From contig NZ_JALNMJ010000001.1 of the NCBI RefSeq assembly GCF_023156505.1, positions 434,001-498,000 on the forward strand: DNA of 64,000 nucleotides. Reading direction: 5' to 3'. The number at the start of each line of letters is the position of its first letter. The first letter of the stretch is position 1. The DNA is from Roseibium sediminicola (GTDB lineage Bacteria > Pseudomonadota > Alphaproteobacteria > Rhizobiales > Stappiaceae). The notes beneath the pieces were generated by a model. It worked only from the letters and a program-made list of their open reading frames with translations, was not told where the DNA came from and made no database searches. Of the stretch, positions 1,441-53,376 are shown piece after piece. Made by a program: the position numbers and the translations under genes.

Positions 1441-1707
1441 TAGGGTCAGGACTCATTCATTTGATCGAAATGGCGCAACAAACGGCAAAGAGTTGCAAGG
1501 AAAAGCGCGAAAAGCGGGCTTCATGCCCGGTTGAGCGGTTTGAGGGAGCAAATCAAAGCCGTTTTGCGTCCCTCCGGGATAGGGTGAATTTGCCCGGCAA
1601 CGTCGTTGCAAACCTTTGGAAGCCGGACGGTTTCCTGCAGCTTTGCGCCTAGTATCCGAACAAATTCATCCCTACCATTTCACTCAAATGAATGGGTCCT
1701 GACCCTA
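1441..1707. mobile_element. MITE-like element with about 33-bp terminal inverted repeats and TA flanks
   Basis: The left end reads TAGGGTCAGGACTCATTC and continues to about 1474. The right end (about 1675-1707) is its reverse complement with about three mismatches, ending GTCCTGACCCTA. Both ends are flanked by TA, the target duplication made by IS630/Tc1-mariner transposases. The roughly 265-bp interior has only a 63-codon frame resembling nothing, so a non-autonomous element moved in trans is likely. The 1291-1440 stretch before it holds nothing else I can identify. Confidence 0.7.
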
Positions 1708-2034
1708 GTCACCCGAATCTGAAGTTCGTCTTATTTCCCGGCACACTCGGAACGAGCTTCAGATTCAAAAGGGTGACTAGCAAGCATATGTTTCTAGTGT
1801 GGTTTTCGAATTTGAAATTCGCTTCGATGGTCGCTGCAACAATGAGTCGAATTTCAGATTCACCACACTAGTCACCCGAATCTGAAGTTCGTCTTATTTC
1901 CCGGCACACTCGGAACGAGCTTCAGATTCCAAAGGGTGACTAGCAAGCATATGTTTCTAGTGTGGTTTTCGAATTTGAAATTCGCTTCGATGGTCGCTGC
2001 AACAATGAGGCGAATTTCAAATTCACCACACTAG
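1705..2034. repeat. Two tandem 163-bp units of CTAG-bounded hairpins (A-B-A-B)
   Basis: Unit A (1705-1780 and 1868-1943) is bounded by CTAGTCACCC and GGGTGACTAG, with inner arms around GAATCTGAAGTTCG. Unit B (1794-1871 and 1957-2034) is bounded by CTAGTGTGGT and ACCACACTAG, with inner arms around CGAATTTGAAATTCG. A 13-base spacer separates A from B, and B1 shares its last CTAG with A2. The two 163-bp composites are nearly identical, so the array arose by recent tandem duplication. The same two units recur at 38405-38567 in another arrangement. The right end of the MITE abuts A1. Confidence 0.85.
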
Positions 2035-38404: not shown

Positions 38405-38567
38405 CTGGTGTGGTGAATTTGAAATACGGCTTATCATTGCAGCACCCGCCGTGGCGTATTTCAAATTCGAAAACCACACTAGAAGCATACATTTACTAGT
38501 CACCCGAAACTGAAGTTCGTTCAGAGCCTGCCGGACAATGAGACGAACTTCAGTTTCGGGTGACTAG
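38405..38567. repeat. CTAG-bounded hairpins, second cluster (B then A)
   Basis: A B unit in inverted orientation (about 38405-38482, ending TTCGAAAACCACACTAG) is followed after 13 bases by an A unit (38496-38567) that starts CTAGTCACCCGAAACTGAAG. The A arms are perfect over 25 bases (38496-38520 with 38543-38567), with a 22-base loop. Loops differ from those at 1705-2034 while arms are conserved, including matched changes in both arms (GAATC to GAAAC), which indicates selection for pairing. Confidence 0.85.
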
Positions 38568-38946: not shown

Positions 38947-41900
38947 ATGTCTGACAGCAACAACATTCTGACCAACGGCGATTTCGAAGCAACAGGCGCC
39001 GACGACGCGACTGGCGCGGTCGATCACGGCACCTGGTTCACCGCCGAAGCCATCGAAGGCTGGCAAGCGACGGAAGGCCTGATTGAAATTCAGGACGCCT
39101 CGAGTGGAGGCCGCGGCACCCCGGTGGATGAGACAGGCATTCTGGCTTCCGGGTCCGTTCTGGAGCTTGACAGTTACGATTACCAGTCCAGGTGCTGGCG
39201 TGCGGACGGCCGCGAGGCGGACAGCACGGTTTCCCAGAGTTTCACCCTTGAGGAGGCAAGCAGCTTCGCCCTCGGTTTCAGCTACGCCGCCAATTGCAGC
39301 ACGCGGACCAGCGATTTCTCCGTCACCATCACCGACGAAGACGGAAACGTTGTTTTCTTCCAGGAGTTTTCCGCCAGGGAAGGCAATCTCGAAGTGGCGT
39401 GGCAGCGCTTCGAGGCCAATCTGGACCTCGATGCTGGAACCTATTCGCTGTCCTTCTCGTCAGCCCAATACGAAGACCGGGATACTGTCGGAGCCCTGAT
39501 CGACAATGTCAGTCTGGTGGACACGGCACCGCAGGCGGAAAACGACTCCTATACGCTCGATCTCGGCGAAACCGAAGTCCTGGACGTCACTGCCGTCATG
39601 GGCACTGAGACGGAAAGCGTCACCGTCCTCGATGAGGATTTTTCCGGCACCCGGCATCTGAAACGTCTCGACACGGTTGCCTCCAGCGATCTGGCCGCCG
39701 TTGACGGCAAGGCGTTCTCCAACGCCTGCGCGGACGGTGTTCTGCTGTTCGAACCGGTCGACATGACCGGCCTTGAAGCCGGTACGTTGTCTTTCGTCAT
39801 CGATTCCGATCCGACCTGCTGGGCCAGCTTCGAAGCGTCCGGCAGCCGCTTCGGTGACTATGTACGTGTCGAGATCAGTATCGATGGCGGCGAGTTCATT
39901 CTGCTCGACCTGTTTTCGGTTCCCGAATCCGAAGAGGGACTTGCAGGGCGGCTGCAGACATTTGTCGGCAGCCTGACGGGCCAGACCTTCAGCTCGGACG
40001 GTGCCACGCTCTCCTACGCCCTTCCCGAGGGCGCCGGGTCTGTCCAGCTTCGTTTCGTCACCGACTTCTCGCAATTCGGCGAGATCGTGACCTTCGACGA
40101 TGTTCTGATCCAGGGCGAACAGACGGTCGAAACAGGCTACGAGAGCGGATTGCTGGCGAACGACACGGACGGCAACGGCGAGGCGCTGGAAATCGTCTCC
40201 GCCGAGGGTGTCGACCTCTTCGGTTCTATCGAGCAGGATGTGACCGTTTTCGAGGAAAATTTCGACGACGCCAAACGCAACCTTGAAAAGCTTGAGACGG
40301 TTGAAGACAGCGACCTGCACGGCGTCGACGGGGCAGCCCGGACCACCAACCGCTCCGGTGGCGAGCTTGAATTCGCCGAGGTTGACATTACCGGTCTCGA
40401 CAACGAGATCTTCTCGTTTTCCCTGAATGCGGATCTTCTCGGATGTCAGCGGTTCGAATCCTATGGCTGGGCACGGGACTTCGTCGAGGTTCAGGTCCGC
40501 TTTGACGACGGTTCCTACCGGACCATCGATGTGTTCGACGTCGAGTGGCGGGGCGGTCAGCAGGTCTTTGTCGGCCGGGAGAGCGGACAGGAAGTTGCCG
40601 TGTCGGACGGGTTTGTTGCCCTGTCCTACGATCTGGCCGCACTGGCGGGGGACGCGGAGACGGCTCAGATCCGTCTGATCGCGGAGGCCTCTTCTCATGG
40701 CGAGATCTTCGAGGTCGACGACGTGTCGCTGGCCGGAACCTTCACACAGCGGACGGGCGATGGCATCGCGACGATCACGCTGGACAGCGGCGCCATCGTG
40801 ACGATCAAGTCCGACGGCAGCTTCAGCTACAACGCCAACGGCCAGTTCGCCTATCTGGCAGAAGGCGAAGAGACCACCGACACGTTCAGCTACACGGTTC
40901 AGGACGCCAGCGGCAACACGGACACGGCAACCGTCACCATCAATCTCGTCGGCACGAATGAAGATCCGGTGATCGGTCTGGCGGATGTCAGCGGCGCCGT
41001 GACGGAAATCGCCGACGGTGCTGCGGGTGAAAACACGGCGCAGCTTTCCGACAGCGGCACCATCGCCTTTTCGGATGTCGACCTGATCGACACCCACTCG
41101 GTCACCGTGACACCGGTCTCGGCCACCGACAGCCTGCTCGGCTCTGTGGCGGCACGCGGAACGCTGTCCGCCGTCGTCTCGGATGCGGCAACTGGAGATG
41201 GTGCAGGCGAGATCACCTGGACCTTCGAGGTCGCAGACAGTGCGGTTGACGACCTGGCCGAGGGCGAGGTGATCACACAGGTCTATACGGTTACGGTCGA
41301 TGACGGCCAGGGCGGCTCCGCTTCGAAGACGGTCACGATATCGCTGACCGGCACCAATGACAGCCCGGTCATCACCACAGCCACCGGCGCGAATGAAGGC
41401 GCTGTCACCGAAGCCGGGGACACGGGCGTTCCGGGAACCCCGGTGGCCACGGGCACGCTGACCTCGTCCGACGTCGACACGGGCGCGACGGCCACCTGGT
41501 CTGGCGATGCCGCCGGCACTTACGGCTCGTTCAGCATCGATCCGGCGACCGGTGTTTGGACCTACACGCTGGACAATGCGGACGGCGATACTGACGCGCT
41601 GGCTGCGGGCGAGACCGTCACAGAAACTTTCACCGCGACCGTTATCGACGACTTAGGGGCGACTGCGACCCAGGTTGTCACCGTCACCATCACCGGCACG
41701 AACGACAGCCCGGTCATCACCACAGCCACCGGCGCGAATGAAGGCGCTGTTGTCGAAGCGGGGGACACGGGCGTTCCGGGAACCCCGGTTGCCACGGGCA
41801 CGCTAACCTCGTCCGACGTCGACACGGGCGCGACCGCAACCTGGTCCGGCGATGCCGCCGGCACTTACGGCTCGTTCAGCATCGATCCGGCGACCGGTGT

Positions 41901-44900
41901 TTGGGCCTACACGCTGGACAATGCCGACGGTGACACCGACGCGCTGGTCGTGGGCGAAACCGTCACGGAGACGTTCACAGCGACCGTTACCGACGACTTC
42001 GGGGCGACTGCGACCCAGGTTGTCACCGTCACCGTTACTGGTACGAACGATGCCCCGGTCATTGATGCGGCAGCTTCCGATCTTAGCGGGACGGTTGTCG
42101 AGGACAGCGCTGAAACTCTTTCCGACACCGGAACCATATCCTTCTCGGATGTTGATACAACGGACCTCCAGTCCGCGTCACGCGCGCTTGTATCCGTCAC
42201 AGGTGACCTGGGACCGATCACGGCCGCACAGGCCCTGACCTTCCTGAGCCTGTCCGGTTTGTCGACAAGCGCGTTTGCGCAGGACAGTTCCGTAGACTGG
42301 ACCTTCTCGGCCGACAATGCCCTGTTCGATCATCTCGGCTGCGATGAAGAGCTGGTTTTCACTTACGAAATTGCCGTTTCCGATGCCGAGGGCGCGGACA
42401 CCGTTCAGGTCAGCGTGACCGTGACCGGCACCAACGACCTGCCGCGCGTCAGCGGCAATGTGGATGGCGGGACCACGCACGAGGATGCATCTCCCGTCAC
42501 CGTCGATCTTCTAGCAAATGCCAGCGACGCGGAAGGGGACGATCTGGGCGTAGCCAATGTCGCGGTGACGTCCTCGGACGGCCGCACCGTTGTCGTCCAG
42601 TCGGTCGACGTATCCACGGGCGAGATCAGCATCGATCCGTCACAGTTCAACGATCTGGCCGCTGGTGAACAGGCCACGCTGACGATTGCCTACGATGTGA
42701 TCGAGGAAGACCGCGCCTATGACGACACGGCTGCCGGCGAGGCCCTCGACAATGCCGGCACGTTCTTCATCGCGGACAACGACACCGGGTCTATCATTCG
42801 GGTCAAGCGGTCTTCCGCAATTGTCACGCACCAGCAGGCCATCAATGCCGCAGGCGTGACAGATGGCAGTGTCGTCTTGGTTGACGACAATTCGCGGGGT
42901 CTTGGTGTCTCCGCGGGAACCGTTGTCGACGGTGTATTTGCCATCGGTGATGCCTCGGCCATTCAATCGATGACCAATTTCACCGGCACGGTCGGGCTGG
43001 ATCCCAACAACGTGCCCCCTACCTACGCGTTCTACGAGGGCACACTGGCGGATTCGACGCTGACGATCGCGATCCCGCGCGACGGCGGCGATTGCGGCGA
43101 TGCCACCCACACCTTCGTCTTCACCGGATTTGATCAGGCGGCGCCGGGAATTCAGCCCGCATTCGACGCGCTTGCTGTCAATGTCTCTCCTGAACCGGTG
43201 CCGGCCACCGCAACCCTCGTGATCGAGGGCCGCAACGACGGACCGGTCGCGGTCAATGATGACAACGCCGACGACGTCCTCGTCGAACAGGGTTTTGGGG
43301 TTGCCGGCGACGACACGGCCTCCGGCAATGTCATCGCCAATGACAGCGATGAAGATCTGTCGGATGTGCTTTCGGTGACGAGGGTGAATTCCGGCACGGG
43401 AGAGCCCGGCTCGGATATGGCTGTCGACGCGACGACGGTCCAGATCGTCCTCGGGCGCTACGGTTCTCTGGCCATTCAGGCGGACGGAAGCTGGGACTAC
43501 ACGCTGGACAATCTGGATCCGGACACCGAAGCGTTGGCAGACGGTGAAACCGCATTCGAAGTCTTCACCTACACGGTCTCCGACGGTAACGGAGGCGAGG
43601 ATACGGCGACTCTGACGCTGGAAATCAGTGGGTCTGGAGACAATGTTGCCCCTGTTGCCAATGACGACAGCTTTACGGTCGCCGAAGACACGCCCGCGAC
43701 CCTGGATCTCCTCGGCAACGACACCGACGGCAACAACGTCCCTGTCGTGACGCAAACGCTGTCCGTGGTTTCCATCAACGGTCAGGCGGCAACGGCCGGC
43801 GCAACGATCGCGACCGACCACGGCACGATCACAATCGGCGCCGGTGGCGCCATGACCTACGTGCCGGACCTCAACTACAACGGTGCCGACAGCTTTACCT
43901 ATATTGCCAGCGACGGGCTGGAGGACAGCGGTGAGGCGACCGTCACGCTGGATGTCGCCGCGGTCAATGACACACCGATTGCGGTCGATGACACCTTCGC
44001 GGGCGATGAAGACACGGCAATCACCGGCAATGTCCTTGCAAATGACAGCGACGTTGACGGCGACAGCCTGACCGTTACCACGGGGACCTTTGCGACGTCC
44101 GACGGCGGCAGTGTCACGATTGCCGAAAATGGCGATTTCACCTACACGCCGGCACCGGATTTCTCCGGTGCGGCCACCTTCGACTACACCGTCTCCGACG
44201 GCAATGGCGGCACCGCGTCGGGTTCGGTCACGCTCAACGTCGATGCGGTCGCCGACGCGCCCGTGATCGAAGTGCCTGGCGGCACCGGTGAATTGCAGGC
44301 AGAGCAGCGCGCCAATACCTATACGCTAAGCACCCAGTATTTTTCGGAAGTCACCACGCTCGCCGATGGCGGTCATGTCGTGACCTGGGCGTCGTCCGGT
44401 CAGGATGGATCCGGGACGGGTATTTATGCCCAACGATATGCAGCCGACGGATCGGCTGCCGGATCGGAATTCCGCGTCAACACCACCACGACTTCCACAC
44501 AGCAATACGCGAGTACGACCGATCTTGGCGATGGCGGGTTTGTCGTTGTCTGGTCATCCGGCGAGCAGGACGGCAGCAGCTATGGCGTCTTCGGTCAACG
44601 TTTTGACGCTGACGGGAATCCTGCCGGTTCCGAGTTCCAAATCAACACCTACACCAACAGCACGCAGTATCTGCCGAACGTCGCAACGCTCGCCGATGGC
44701 GGGTTCGTCGTCAACTGGAACTCCTCCGGCCAGGATGGGTCCAGCTACGGAATTTTCGCACAGCGATACGATGTCTACGGCGACCCGGTCGGTACCGAGT
44801 TCAAGGTCAACACAGTTACATCTGGCTACCAGTTTAACGATGGCCATATCAACAAGAACATTGCCGGTCTCGCGGATGGCGGCTTTGTCATTTCTTGGCA

Positions 44901-47094
44901 GGATAACAATAGCCGAGACGGGTCCGGCTATGCGGTCTTCGCCCAGCAATACGATGCGGACGGAAACACCGTAGGGGCTGAGTTTCAGGTCAACACCTAC
45001 ACGACAAACAATCAACTCTATGCCAATGTCGCGGCGCTCACCGACGGCGGATACGTCATCACCTGGTCGTCTAATGGTCAGGATGGAAGTGCCTATGGTG
45101 TCTTCGGACAGCGTTACGATGCTTCGGGAAATGCCGTCGGCTCAGAGTTCCAGGTCAACACGACCACGGGCAGCACCCAGTATTTTGGCGGCGTTACGGG
45201 TCTCGCAAGTGGCGGCTTTGTGGTGATCTGGGACAGTCGTGTGGCCGATGGCTCCGGTTACGGCGTCGTGGCGCAGGAATTCGACGCTGCCGGCAACAAG
45301 GTCGGCGGGGAAGTTCTGATCAATACCACGACGGCTAATGACCAGCGATATTCCAGCATCGACGCCCGGCCGGATGGCGGATATGTCGTGACATGGTCGG
45401 ACAATAGCGCCGACGGTTCGGGCTGGGGTGTCTTTGTCCGCGCGGCGGCCGGCAGCGGCGCCTCGGGCGATGAGGACACGGATATCGCCCTCGATGTTTC
45501 AGCAGCACTCACGGACACCGACGGGTCGGAAACCCTGTCGGATATCACGATCTCCGGTGTGCCGGACGGCGCCGTGCTTTCGGCCGGAACCGATAACAAC
45601 GATGGCACCTGGACAGTGACCCAGGCCCAGTTGAGCGGCCTGACACTTCGGGCCGCGGAGAACTGGAACGGGTCGTTTGACCTGACAGTCTCGGTAACGT
45701 CGACGGAGACATCAAACGGCGACACGGCGACAAGCACCCAAACATTCACGGTGACGGTCAATCCGGTCAACGATGGCCCGGTTGCCAATGACGACGGCGG
45801 CATTGCAGCTCAGGAGGACGTGCCGCTGACGATCGCGGCAGAAGACCTTCTGGCGAATGACACCGACGCGGACATCGCGACAAACGGCCAGAGCCTGTCG
45901 ATTTCCTCCGTCTCCAACGCCGTCAACGGCAGTGTAAGCCTCGATGTCAATGGCGATGTCGTCTTCACGCCCGACGCGAACTTTTTCGGAGAAACCTCGT
46001 TCGACTACACGGTGTCGGACGGAAACGGGGGGAGCTCCACGGCAACCGCCACGATCGATGTGGCACCGGTCAACGATGCACCGGTGATCGATCTGGCCGC
46101 TTCCGATCTGACGGAAGAGGTCACGGCCGGGTTCAGGCTTTCGGGCAGTTTCGACGCCACTGACTTCCTCGCCGCGTTCGATACCTCAAGGGGCACGGCC
46201 TCGGTCGTCACCGTCAATGGCCTGGAGGCGCTCCGGGTTCAGGTGAATTCGGAAAGCCAGCGCAATCCGCACACGTTCCTGGAAATCGTCGAAGCCGGGG
46301 TCCTTCAGTCGGACGACAAGATCAGCCTGACCGTCGAAGGTCAGGTCACCCGCACGGGTGGCGATCAGGATATCTTCTTCGGTCTGACCGATGGTAGGGG
46401 CCAGGTCTCCTATTTCAGTGTCAATGGCGCTTCGGGACGGCTTTATGCCGGCGACCTGGAGACAGATGCTCAACCCGGGGATTCCGTCCAGAATGGCGCG
46501 ATCACGTCCAACGCTGTCAATCTCAGCGGGGGACAGAACAACAGTTTCCGGCTCGAGATCGTTCTGGATGGAGAAAACGACACGATCTCGATCTTCAGAA
46601 GCAACGGTGCTCTCGTTGGCACCTTCGACGGGTACAGCGCTGCCGGGGACCCTGCCGATCAGACCAACGCCCTCGACCCGTCTCTCGGCCTGAAACTGTT
46701 CCTGGCCAGCGACAACACGACTGAAACCAACTACTTCGTCGGCCTTGATTACGAGATGGAGATCATCCGTTCGGGCACGGTCGCATTTGACGATATCGAT
46801 GTCACCGACACCCATAGCGCGGCCGTGGCATCTGTGACGGTTACAGGCGACAACGGCCTGCTGAACCCGTCGGATGCCTTCGACTTCCTCGATCTGGAAG
46901 CCGTCGATCAGAGTGCCGATACGGTGGACTGGAACTTCGATATGTCCGATCCGGCCCTTGCGAATGTTCTGGAGGGGCTCGGCGCCGGCGAAAGCCTGAT
47001 CTTCGACTACCAGATCCAGATCACGGATGCGGCCGGGGCAACGGACACCGAGAGCCTGAGGATCACGCTCAATGGAGACGACTTCTTCGCCTGA
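38947..47094 (+). CDS. Giant VCBS/cadherin-repeat surface or secreted protein (2715 residues)
   Basis: There is no Sec signal peptide. A jelly-roll-like N-domain (about 1-196) is followed by two homologous modules of about 170 residues (near 223-392 and 432-598), each with a Cys and a closing DDV loop. VCBS/cadherin-like repeats follow (about 600-1160 and 1430-1770), two of them nearly identical 115-residue copies. Seven propeller-like repeats of about 55 residues come next (1782-2168; DGGFVVVWSSG, DGSSYGVFGQRFDADG), then cadherin-like repeats (2172-2382), a LamG-like domain (2385-2615) and a last VCBS-like unit. It ends GDDFFA, an acidic-hydrophobic tail seen in type I secretion substrates. 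Calcium binding, adhesion and type I export are inferred; no secretion genes or RTX nonapeptides are visible. Confidence 0.85.
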   Translation: MSDSNNILTNGDFEATGADDATGAVDHGTWFTAEAIEGWQATEGLIEIQDASSGGRGTPVDETGILASGSVLELDSYDYQSRCWRADGREADSTVSQSFTLEEASSFALGFSYAANCSTRTSDFSVTITDEDGNVVFFQEFSAREGNLEVAWQRFEANLDLDAGTYSLSFSSAQYEDRDTVGALIDNVSLVDTAPQAENDSYTLDLGETEVLDVTAVMGTETESVTVLDEDFSGTRHLKRLDTVASSDLAAVDGKAFSNACADGVLLFEPVDMTGLEAGTLSFVIDSDPTCWASFEASGSRFGDYVRVEISIDGGEFILLDLFSVPESEEGLAGRLQTFVGSLTGQTFSSDGATLSYALPEGAGSVQLRFVTDFSQFGEIVTFDDVLIQGEQTVETGYESGLLANDTDGNGEALEIVSAEGVDLFGSIEQDVTVFEENFDDAKRNLEKLETVEDSDLHGVDGAARTTNRSGGELEFAEVDITGLDNEIFSFSLNADLLGCQRFESYGWARDFVEVQVRFDDGSYRTIDVFDVEWRGGQQVFVGRESGQEVAVSDGFVALSYDLAALAGDAETAQIRLIAEASSHGEIFEVDDVSLAGTFTQRTGDGIATITLDSGAIVTIKSDGSFSYNANGQFAYLAEGEETTDTFSYTVQDASGNTDTATVTINLVGTNEDPVIGLADVSGAVTEIADGAAGENTAQLSDSGTIAFSDVDLIDTHSVTVTPVSATDSLLGSVAARGTLSAVVSDAATGDGAGEITWTFEVADSAVDDLAEGEVITQVYTVTVDDGQGGSASKTVTISLTGTNDSPVITTATGANEGAVTEAGDTGVPGTPVATGTLTSSDVDTGATATWSGDAAGTYGSFSIDPATGVWTYTLDNADGDTDALAAGETVTETFTATVIDDLGATATQVVTVTITGTNDSPVITTATGANEGAVVEAGDTGVPGTPVATGTLTSSDVDTGATATWSGDAAGTYGSFSIDPATGVWAYTLDNADGDTDALVVGETVTETFTATVTDDFGATATQVVTVTVTGTNDAPVIDAAASDLSGTVVEDSAETLSDTGTISFSDVDTTDLQSASRALVSVTGDLGPITAAQALTFLSLSGLSTSAFAQDSSVDWTFSADNALFDHLGCDEELVFTYEIAVSDAEGADTVQVSVTVTGTNDLPRVSGNVDGGTTHEDASPVTVDLLANASDAEGDDLGVANVAVTSSDGRTVVVQSVDVSTGEISIDPSQFNDLAAGEQATLTIAYDVIEEDRAYDDTAAGEALDNAGTFFIADNDTGSIIRVKRSSAIVTHQQAINAAGVTDGSVVLVDDNSRGLGVSAGTVVDGVFAIGDASAIQSMTNFTGTVGLDPNNVPPTYAFYEGTLADSTLTIAIPRDGGDCGDATHTFVFTGFDQAAPGIQPAFDALAVNVSPEPVPATATLVIEGRNDGPVAVNDDNADDVLVEQGFGVAGDDTASGNVIANDSDEDLSDVLSVTRVNSGTGEPGSDMAVDATTVQIVLGRYGSLAIQADGSWDYTLDNLDPDTEALADGETAFEVFTYTVSDGNGGEDTATLTLEISGSGDNVAPVANDDSFTVAEDTPATLDLLGNDTDGNNVPVVTQTLSVVSINGQAATAGATIATDHGTITIGAGGAMTYVPDLNYNGADSFTYIASDGLEDSGEATVTLDVAAVNDTPIAVDDTFAGDEDTAITGNVLANDSDVDGDSLTVTTGTFATSDGGSVTIAENGDFTYTPAPDFSGAATFDYTVSDGNGGTASGSVTLNVDAVADAPVIEVPGGTGELQAEQRANTYTLSTQYFSEVTTLADGGHVVTWASSGQDGSGTGIYAQRYAADGSAAGSEFRVNTTTTSTQQYASTTDLGDGGFVVVWSSGEQDGSSYGVFGQRFDADGNPAGSEFQINTYTNSTQYLPNVATLADGGFVVNWNSSGQDGSSYGIFAQRYDVYGDPVGTEFKVNTVTSGYQFNDGHINKNIAGLADGGFVISWQDNNSRDGSGYAVFAQQYDADGNTVGAEFQVNTYTTNNQLYANVAALTDGGYVITWSSNGQDGSAYGVFGQRYDASGNAVGSEFQVNTTTGSTQYFGGVTGLASGGFVVIWDSRVADGSGYGVVAQEFDAAGNKVGGEVLINTTTANDQRYSSIDARPDGGYVVTWSDNSADGSGWGVFVRAAAGSGASGDEDTDIALDVSAALTDTDGSETLSDITISGVPDGAVLSAGTDNNDGTWTVTQAQLSGLTLRAAENWNGSFDLTVSVTSTETSNGDTATSTQTFTVTVNPVNDGPVANDDGGIAAQEDVPLTIAAEDLLANDTDADIATNGQSLSISSVSNAVNGSVSLDVNGDVVFTPDANFFGETSFDYTVSDGNGGSSTATATIDVAPVNDAPVIDLAASDLTEEVTAGFRLSGSFDATDFLAAFDTSRGTASVVTVNGLEALRVQVNSESQRNPHTFLEIVEAGVLQSDDKISLTVEGQVTRTGGDQDIFFGLTDGRGQVSYFSVNGASGRLYAGDLETDAQPGDSVQNGAITSNAVNLSGGQNNSFRLEIVLDGENDTISIFRSNGALVGTFDGYSAAGDPADQTNALDPSLGLKLFLASDNTTETNYFVGLDYEMEIIRSGTVAFDDIDVTDTHSAAVASVTVTGDNGLLNPSDAFDFLDLEAVDQSADTVDWNFDMSDPALANVLEGLGAGESLIFDYQIQITDAAGATDTESLRITLNGDDFFA
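41361..42050 (+). repeat. Near-identical 345-bp tandem repeat inside the giant gene
   Basis: Copy 1 spans 41361-41705 and copy 2 spans 41706-42050; each encodes 115 residues of a VCBS domain (start SPVITTATGANEGAV). The first two thirds differ by only scattered bases, pointing to recent duplication or gene conversion and a site where repeat number could vary. Confidence 0.85.
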
Positions 47095-53160: not shown

Positions 53161-53280
53161 TTGTCTGTCCTAACGTCCTTAACGGATGCGGCGCGCCGCG
53201 CCAACCGGCTTTGCGCCCGGCAAGCCGTTTTCGCCAAAGAAGATTGACCGGCGTGGCGTTATCCCGTAGGAGAGGGGCAC

Positions 53281-53340
53281 TTCGTGGTGATTTGGGCCGG
53301 CCGGCTTGCAGCCACGTTAAACAAGTTGCTAAAAAGGCCG
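53281..53340 (+). promoter_or_regulatory. SAM-II riboswitch (metA motif) upstream of metZ
   Basis: CGTGG (53283-53287) pairs with CCACG (53312-53316) as P1; between them GTGATTTG and GGCTTGCAG, and after them GTTAAACAAG, GCTAAAAA and GGCCG for the pseudoknot, all reproduce the SAM-II consensus order. Such riboswitches bind S-adenosylmethionine in alphaproteobacteria upstream of metA, metX or metZ. A terminator follows directly. Confidence 0.92.
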
Positions 53341-53345
53341 GAGGT

Positions 53346-53376
53346 GCAAACCCCGGTCTTGAGGCTGGGGTTTTTT
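53346..53376 (+). terminator. Terminator linked to the SAM-II riboswitch
   Basis: GCAAACCCC (53346-53354) pairs with GGGGTTT (53367-53373), followed by a T-run to 53376. It lies 18 bp before the metZ start, so SAM binding could switch termination as well as ribosome access. Confidence 0.7.

Follow-up and report, generated by a model that had tools for sequence, protein, structure and literature searches.

A two-hairpin intergenic repeat of Roseibium sediminicola with the features of a non-autonomous IS630-family transposon

Hairpins bounded by CTAG lie at two places, 1705-2034 and 38405-38567, in the window analyzed here (64,000 nucleotides of Roseibium sediminicola contig NZ_JALNMJ010000001.1), raising the question of what kind of repeat they form and how it spreads. 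An earlier note on this DNA had described two partner hairpins, A and B, as a REP/BIME-like family that could be mobilized in trans or processed as RNA. We therefore examined the architecture of these sequences, their copies in R. sediminicola and related bacteria, their insertion sites and ends, and the pairing of their arms.

Architecture, copies and genomic setting

Both hairpins were present at these places, and A and B are halves of one element rather than separate partner units. Its 167 bp are non-coding and run from hairpin A (76 nt) through a 13-nt spacer to hairpin B (78 nt). On the plus strand, copy 1 occupies 1705..1871 (A 1705-1780, spacer 1781-1793, B 1794-1871) and copy 2 occupies 1868..2034 (A 1868-1943, spacer 1944-1956, B 1957-2034), the CTAG at 1868-1871 being common to the two. 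Copy 3 is inverted, at 38405..38567 on the minus strand (A 38496-38567, spacer 38483-38495, B 38405-38482), and what had been read there as a different order is the same A-spacer-B order on that strand. Separate mobility of A and B finds no support, since all 36 full-length places in R. sediminicola read A-spacer-B. The halves are also alike in sequence: in the family consensus strings, the outer 28 nt of reverse-complemented B agree with A at 20 positions.

Copy 3 is 81% identical to copy 1, with an A whose inner arm is without the 4 extra nt, and reads as an older, diverged member. Its outer B end is CTGG/CCAG, so that the claim of CTAG at all unit ends held for copies 1 and 2 and failed here. 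Copies 1 and 2 are 98% identical over the 163-nt repeat that had been called an exact tandem duplication. Relative to the consensus of 30 R. sediminicola copies, the B hairpin of copy 1 has two changes of its own, while copy 2 carries a variant that is shared with three other loci (L011, L015 and L022) and absent from copy 1. Because the variants differ, two separate insertions fit better than a local duplication, and the apparent tandem would most simply represent two insertions into one CTAG, although gene conversion could also be involved.

The family also extends far beyond two loci. Using blastn against the 6.35 Mb draft assembly of R. sediminicola (62 contigs), we found 36 full-length copies, i.e., with at least 166 of the 167 query positions matched, plus one lacking most of B. 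Eight of 30 aligned copies were identical to their consensus, and the ends were abrupt; a B remnant (L037) and a short match (L038) yielded nothing informative. When genes around the copies were predicted with a simple codon-score script, 34 of 35 loci lay outside predicted genes, often just past a stop codon. The neighboring genes ran in the same direction at 20 of these loci, converged at seven and diverged at five, with one side unknown at two and one copy inside a gene. Clustering of neighbors for a recurrent gene gave no candidate, open frames that extend through the element having confounded it.

Beyond R. sediminicola, a covariance model built from 26 sequences matched 27 of 45 genomes of the genus at E <= 0.01, in a search whose strict filters may miss weak matches. 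A 23-nt pattern from the A arm gave 50 stretches in named genomes (Stappia, Hongsoonwoonella, Roseibium, Martelella, a 'Rhodobacterales' strain, a Parvularcula bin and a few others) and no match among viral contigs. Nineteen plasmid records matched the element, nine of them over at least 80% of its length, all from Roseibium or Labrenzia. One Roseibium genome (G013) had single hairpins of 72-74 nt in which the outer ends of A and B are joined; by eye they are of two kinds (L240-L242 with L248, and L244-L247), and four of them passed a strict pattern. These may be minis that are themselves mobile, or may have arisen by locus-by-locus deletions between direct repeats.

Several copies share their surroundings. 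Six copies in one genome (G060; L157, L158, L160, L164, L167 and L168) have near-identical flanks, with ggtccacc before the first CTAG and tggtggga after the last, and represent either one site of another repeat hit repeatedly or a larger repeat carrying the element. The flanks of L042, L044 and L073 are common to three species (G004, G007 and G001), which is an old insertion kept at one place; the feet of A at this locus read TTGG/CCAA in two species and CTAG/CTAG in the third.

The element also keeps company with other repeats. The non-coding repeat 'X' (1441..1708, minus strand) is not part of the element, and its end supplies the CTAG occupied by copy 1. It is about 265 bp long, with ends GGGTCAGGACCCATT and TA/CTAG flanks, and has about 20 near full-length matches in R. 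sediminicola; five element copies sit exactly at its end (in the window and at L005, L006, L011 and L033). Repeat 'Y' is about 280 bp long, with ends GGGTCTGTGGACAATTAGG, CTAG flanks and about 13 near full-length matches in R. sediminicola; the element lies at its end at L016, L019, L023, L025 and L030, and inside it at L035. A CTAG-flanked stretch of about 800 bp on R. sediminicola contig C13 (L151, 1471-2272), with ends GGCCGTGTGGACG and a DDE_Tnp_1 match, may be related to the driver of 'Y', since its ends resemble those of 'Y'. Elsewhere in the window, a 2715-aa open frame with many cadherin/Ig-like domains lies just beyond copy 3 (38947-47094, plus strand), and a SAM-alpha riboswitch scored 80.9 bits at 53274-53353 (plus strand).

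Insertion sites and terminal sequences

To look for empty sites, 16 R. sediminicola copies were queried as joined flanks; at least four loci matched across the junction, four were examined, and three of these had an empty site in relatives. At L024, a relative (G017) has a single 4-mer, CTTG, and no element; at L022, another (G044) has a single TTAA and no element; and at L021, G017 retains three letters of the 4-mer and no element, which six further relatives also lack. At the fourth, L012, the relative aligned poorly at the junction. Among L001-L030, the outer 4-mer was CTAG on the left in 29 of 30 copies and on the right in 28 of 30. Across all 4-mers read (128 outer per side and 120 inner, with L010 and L035 omitted), the outermost base was the only one to deviate in 17 of 63 outer 4-mers vs. 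3 of 62 inner ones (p = 0.001), an excess expected if that base belongs to the flank and TA is the duplicated target. These deviations and the empty sites fit duplication of TA, although CTAG on both sides cannot directly separate a 2-bp from a 4-bp duplication; TA is a likely candidate for the target-site duplication of the element. In the window, the presumed duplicated TA, inferred from the outermost-base deviations, stands within the CTAG that opens copy 1 on its left (1706..1707, no strand assigned), and the remaining presumed copies at 1869-1870 and 2032-2033, at the ends of copies 1 and 2. CTAG occurs at 28 of the window's 1008 TA sites, and about ten of these 28 are part of the elements. 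IS630-family elements are described in PMC2170065 as inserting at TA with duplication, and the title of a reference cited there names a preference of IS630 for CTAG.

With G as its first letter and C as its last, the unit leaves a complete CTAG on either side when it enters one, and a TAG stop codon at that place is rebuilt. Insertion would thus be mild, in that a gene ending in cTAG keeps its stop. At nine R. sediminicola loci the predicted stop codon comes from the element's terminal CTAG, and in the R. algicola record NZ_CP019631.1 an annotated SDR gene also ends within it.

The outer end of A resembled IS630 ends from Martelella, Rhizobium, Sphingobium and one Roseibium genome. Two of the 50 A-pattern matches were not the element: the Martelella stretch L122 and the Sphingomonas stretch L132 are ends of IS630-family insertion sequences, in both of which an IS630 transposase frame runs into the A-like outer arm. 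Over 28 nt, the family consensus of this end agreed with L122 at 28 positions (partly by construction, as L122 was found with a pattern taken from A), with L350 at 26, with L132 and L299 at 25 each, and with L301 at 23. The last is a CTAG-bounded insertion sequence of a genus genome, G051, found by its protein and not by its ends. The L122 end matched 457 plasmid records, and 'IS630 family transposase' stood in 13 of the 15 records listed. The transposase of Martelella sp. AD-3 (P0001) scored 283.9 bits with the NCBIfam IS630 model and matched Pfam DDE_3; in the genus, P0001 had matches in 5 of 45 genomes, full-length at 84% identity in G051, at 49-55% in G019, and as fragments or weak matches in G049, G047 and G054. 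For the outer end of B, 23 of 28 nt agreed with an IS630 insertion sequence of Azotobacter (L313), with an identical tip, GTGTGGTGAAT, that stands at both ends of L313; the L313 transposase is 52% identical to the Martelella one, and the B-end match comes from this one insertion sequence.

L298, L299, L301, L350 and L313 share outer ends and CTAG/TA flanks with the element. They differ from it in being autonomous and about 1.2 kb long (1166 bp between and including the CTAGs for L299, from R. johnstonii), with simple terminal repeats that have no inner hairpin arms. The annotated IS630 transposase gene of L298 and of L299 stops within the CTAG of the flank (position 1500), the target site completing its TAG stop codon.

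Short and non-coding, with many near-identical dispersed copies and IS630-like terminal repeats, the element has the features of a MITE, and we consider it highly probable, judging from these sequences, that it is a non-autonomous transposon of the IS630 (Tc1/mariner-like) family. We infer the following mode of mobilization. An IS630-type transposase acting in trans would cut both outer ends, at TA/GTCACC... of A and ...CACAC/TA of B, and the excised unit would be pasted into a TA, mostly within CTAG, with duplication of TA. The outer arm of each half would be the true terminal repeat, and the inner arm an inverted copy, usually with about 4 extra nt between the tip and the subterminal part; inner arms would be ends that cannot be cut. 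Mobilization in trans, as the earlier note had suggested, is probable.

Some observations sit less easily with a MITE. The main weakness is that no IS630 transposase was found in the R. sediminicola genome: the 62-contig draft gave no DDE_3 match and no P0001 match, despite its nearly identical copies. MITEs usually share their genome with a cognate transposase, but not every host must carry one; here the driver may have disappeared from the genome, may be hidden in a gap of the assembly or may be more distantly related. Counting further against this assignment, the tips of the element differ (GTCACC vs. GTGTGG), and unequal tips are unusual for one transposase. Finally, the common centre described below is not explained by end-driven transposition alone. 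An IS5-type driver was also considered and rejected: PF01609 had nine matches in R. sediminicola, no A- or B-like end occurred in the fetched stretches, and L151, although CTAG-flanked, has ends other than the element's.

Pairing of the arms and the shared centre

As single-stranded DNA, copy 2 folded at -47 kcal/mol, compared to -16.6 (sd 3.1) for 200 shuffles (z = -9.9). Over 26 sequences, 92.5% of 1289 cells held standard pairs. The arms covaried, as the earlier note had it: 17 of 50 pairs changed on both sides, against a mean of 7.8 in shuffles that ignore relatedness, with none of 500 shuffles as high. In 94 copies from outside R. sediminicola, conservation was lowest in the loops (0.69-0.75), and reached 0.87-0.94 in the arms and 0.87 in the spacer. 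Among 120 distinct sequences, half-changes were divided equally between G.U (139) and A.C (136), a pattern that speaks against selection acting on a single, fixed strand of RNA.

The pairing could instead be a by-product, if template switching at replication copies one arm onto the other; covariation would then need no function. This explanation has a good deal in its favor, and we lean only somewhat against it. Traces of such copying are visible: the outer A arm of L044 has gained the inner arm's TTTT, the extra nt of the inner arm have been lost in L041 and in copy 3, L032 has its B hairpin inverted, and the B loop is lost in L033, L053 and L060. The equality of G.U and A.C half-changes points the same way, and since arm-on-arm copying can be seen, part of the covariation can arise without function. 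What speaks against template switching is that the mostly 4-nt offset of the inner arm, which copying should erase, recurs with unrelated arms, and that hairpins flank the centre on both sides at most loci selected by the centre alone.

These loci came from a search with the inner CTAG-13nt-CTAG only, allowing up to two mismatches, which found the centre in 21 of 297 genomes of the order, R. sediminicola included, representing 15 of 122 genera (the reversed control gave one match). A similar pattern was found in 7 of 385 genomes drawn from the class, again including R. sediminicola (control, 0). We fetched 39 centre loci from outside R. sediminicola and left out one at an edge; at 33 of the remaining 38, both sides formed hairpins (z < -3, 60 composition shuffles), while at the other five one side passed and the other fell between -1.5 and -3.0. 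At 19 loci with other arms, the inner arms agreed with the R. sediminicola type at 56% and 61% and the centre at 89%, a value that is biased, 18 of the 19 having been found through the centre itself. The kinds of arm included TCACCCGAATCTGAAG, TGGTCCGATTCCGACATTTGC, TGTTCCGTTTCAGACATTTGC, TGTGATGATCGAGAAATTCGC and TGTCCTGAATCTGAAGTTCG. By eye, two kinds resemble the ends of an insertion sequence on a viral contig (L311), whose transposase is 62% identical to P0001. Arm type TGGTCCGATTCCGACATTTGC (TGGTCC) had no plasmid match annotated as IS630, several of the records being unannotated, and the Sphingobium plasmid stretch fetched for it (L349) reads as another, related two-hairpin element, with a 12-nt spacer and without a P0001-like frame; arm type TGTGATGATCG had no plasmid record covering 80% of the query. 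Of 145 distinct segments, those that missed the fit cut-off were dropped, many since the script misplaced the outer arm; among the hairpins retained, the inner arm showed the 4-nt offset in 17 of 22 for A and in 27 of 38 for B.

The element probably moves in an ordinary way, but a two-hairpin body with a centre common to many related bacteria is unusual. Conceivably, though we remain doubtful, these elements form an alphaproteobacterial superfamily with a fixed and selected chassis, CTAG-hairpin-CTAG-13nt-CTAG-hairpin-CTAG, with centre CAARTNTATGTTT and about 4 extra nt per inner arm, on which arms have been swapped wholesale to resemble different IS630 lineages. The near-palindromic centre CAARTNTATGTTT would then be read by a host or transposase factor, and the paired, offset inner pseudo-ends would block internal cutting or help synapsis.

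Comparison with known repeats

No description of this element was found among the papers listed by full-text searches of the open-access literature. RUP of Streptococcus pneumoniae, as presented in PMC2229807 and PMC3049150, is likewise short and non-coding, with IS630-like ends, TA targets and proposed movement in trans. It differs in being 107 bp long, in having terminal repeats that pair with each other rather than two hairpins and a spacer, and in having a related insertion sequence (IS630-Spn1) in the same species. The palindromic rhizobial repeats RIME, AB/C and Sm of Sinorhizobium, compared by description, and Br-REP1/2 of Bradyrhizobium are intergenic as well (PMC2573895, PMC5082802); by eye, the Br-REP consensus given in PMC5082802 is unlike the element's arms.

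Similar in plan are the CIR (CcrM-associated intergenic repeats) of Caulobacter, Brucella and other alphaproteobacteria, compared by description only: sections 4 and 7 of PMC2229807 give them two arms, a linker, TA termini, intergenic positions and an unexplained mobility. The element could accordingly be a CIR kept for its GANTC methylation sites, and A does hold two or more GANTC in 94 of 128 copies. We nevertheless regard this as unlikely. GANTC lies at the terminal loop in CIR and in the stems here (by eye); it is present in A of 106 of 128 copies and in B of only 4 of 128, and one sublineage reads GAAAC at its position. Moreover, CIR are about 110 bp long, compared to 167 bp, and have no known terminal repeat or driver.

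It is less probable still that the hairpins are kept for a role in RNA, as a terminator, mRNA stabilizer, RNase III site or small RNA, even though the fold is strong and 34 of the 35 R. sediminicola loci lie outside predicted genes, often just past a stop. The processing as RNA proposed before was not borne out by any sign of a strand-specific function. G.U half-changes were not in excess over A.C, a comparison in which averaging over orientations could hide a strand signal; neighboring genes took every orientation at the 35 loci; and the window's element had no Rfam match at gathering score. One copy contained a sub-threshold match to a miRNA model (29.2 bits vs. 70), and a sub-threshold sRNA match lay outside the element.

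The REP/BIME-like character ascribed to the family held as far as dispersed, paired hairpins with covarying arms; neither a restriction to two loci nor a lack of covariation, which would have told against the earlier note, was observed. Linkage to RAYT found no support, and the ends are IS630-type. Like REP/BIME/REPIN with RAYT, the element consists of paired, inverted palindromic units that are dispersed and intergenic; by the definition in PMC3733652, it differs in having CTAG at the hairpin feet with no GTAG or CGTC tag, and its hairpins measure 76-78 nt rather than 20-40 bp. A REP/BIME (REPIN) mode of movement, in which a RAYT or a tyrosine transposase of the IS200/IS605 type would carry the element as single-stranded DNA and an inner CTAG guide would pair with the outer CTAG, is very improbable: notwithstanding the paired inverted palindromes, the conserved tetranucleotide at the hairpin foot and the joint change of outer and inner 4-mers in some copies (TTGG/TTGG in L042 and L073, CTCG/CTCG in L045), Y1_Tnp (PF01797) had no match in R. 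sediminicola (the control matched in 5 of 14 genomes) and occurred in 4 of 45 genus genomes, among the 27 element-bearing ones only in G047, with an internal stop, while guide pairing itself was dropped since outer 4-mers deviate at either end of the element, for the most part in their outermost base.

For the non-autonomous IS630-family transposon that we favor, an IS630 transposase would be a testable driver, with defined ends, for a two-hairpin intergenic repeat of Hyphomicrobiales. This raises the question of whether other two-arm repeats such as CIR, the mobility of which was left open in the review, move likewise. If the chassis is selected, it would represent a new design rule for non-autonomous transposons, in which ends can be exchanged while the double hairpin and the 13-nt centre are kept, and the element would be a parasite made for switching the transposase that drives it.
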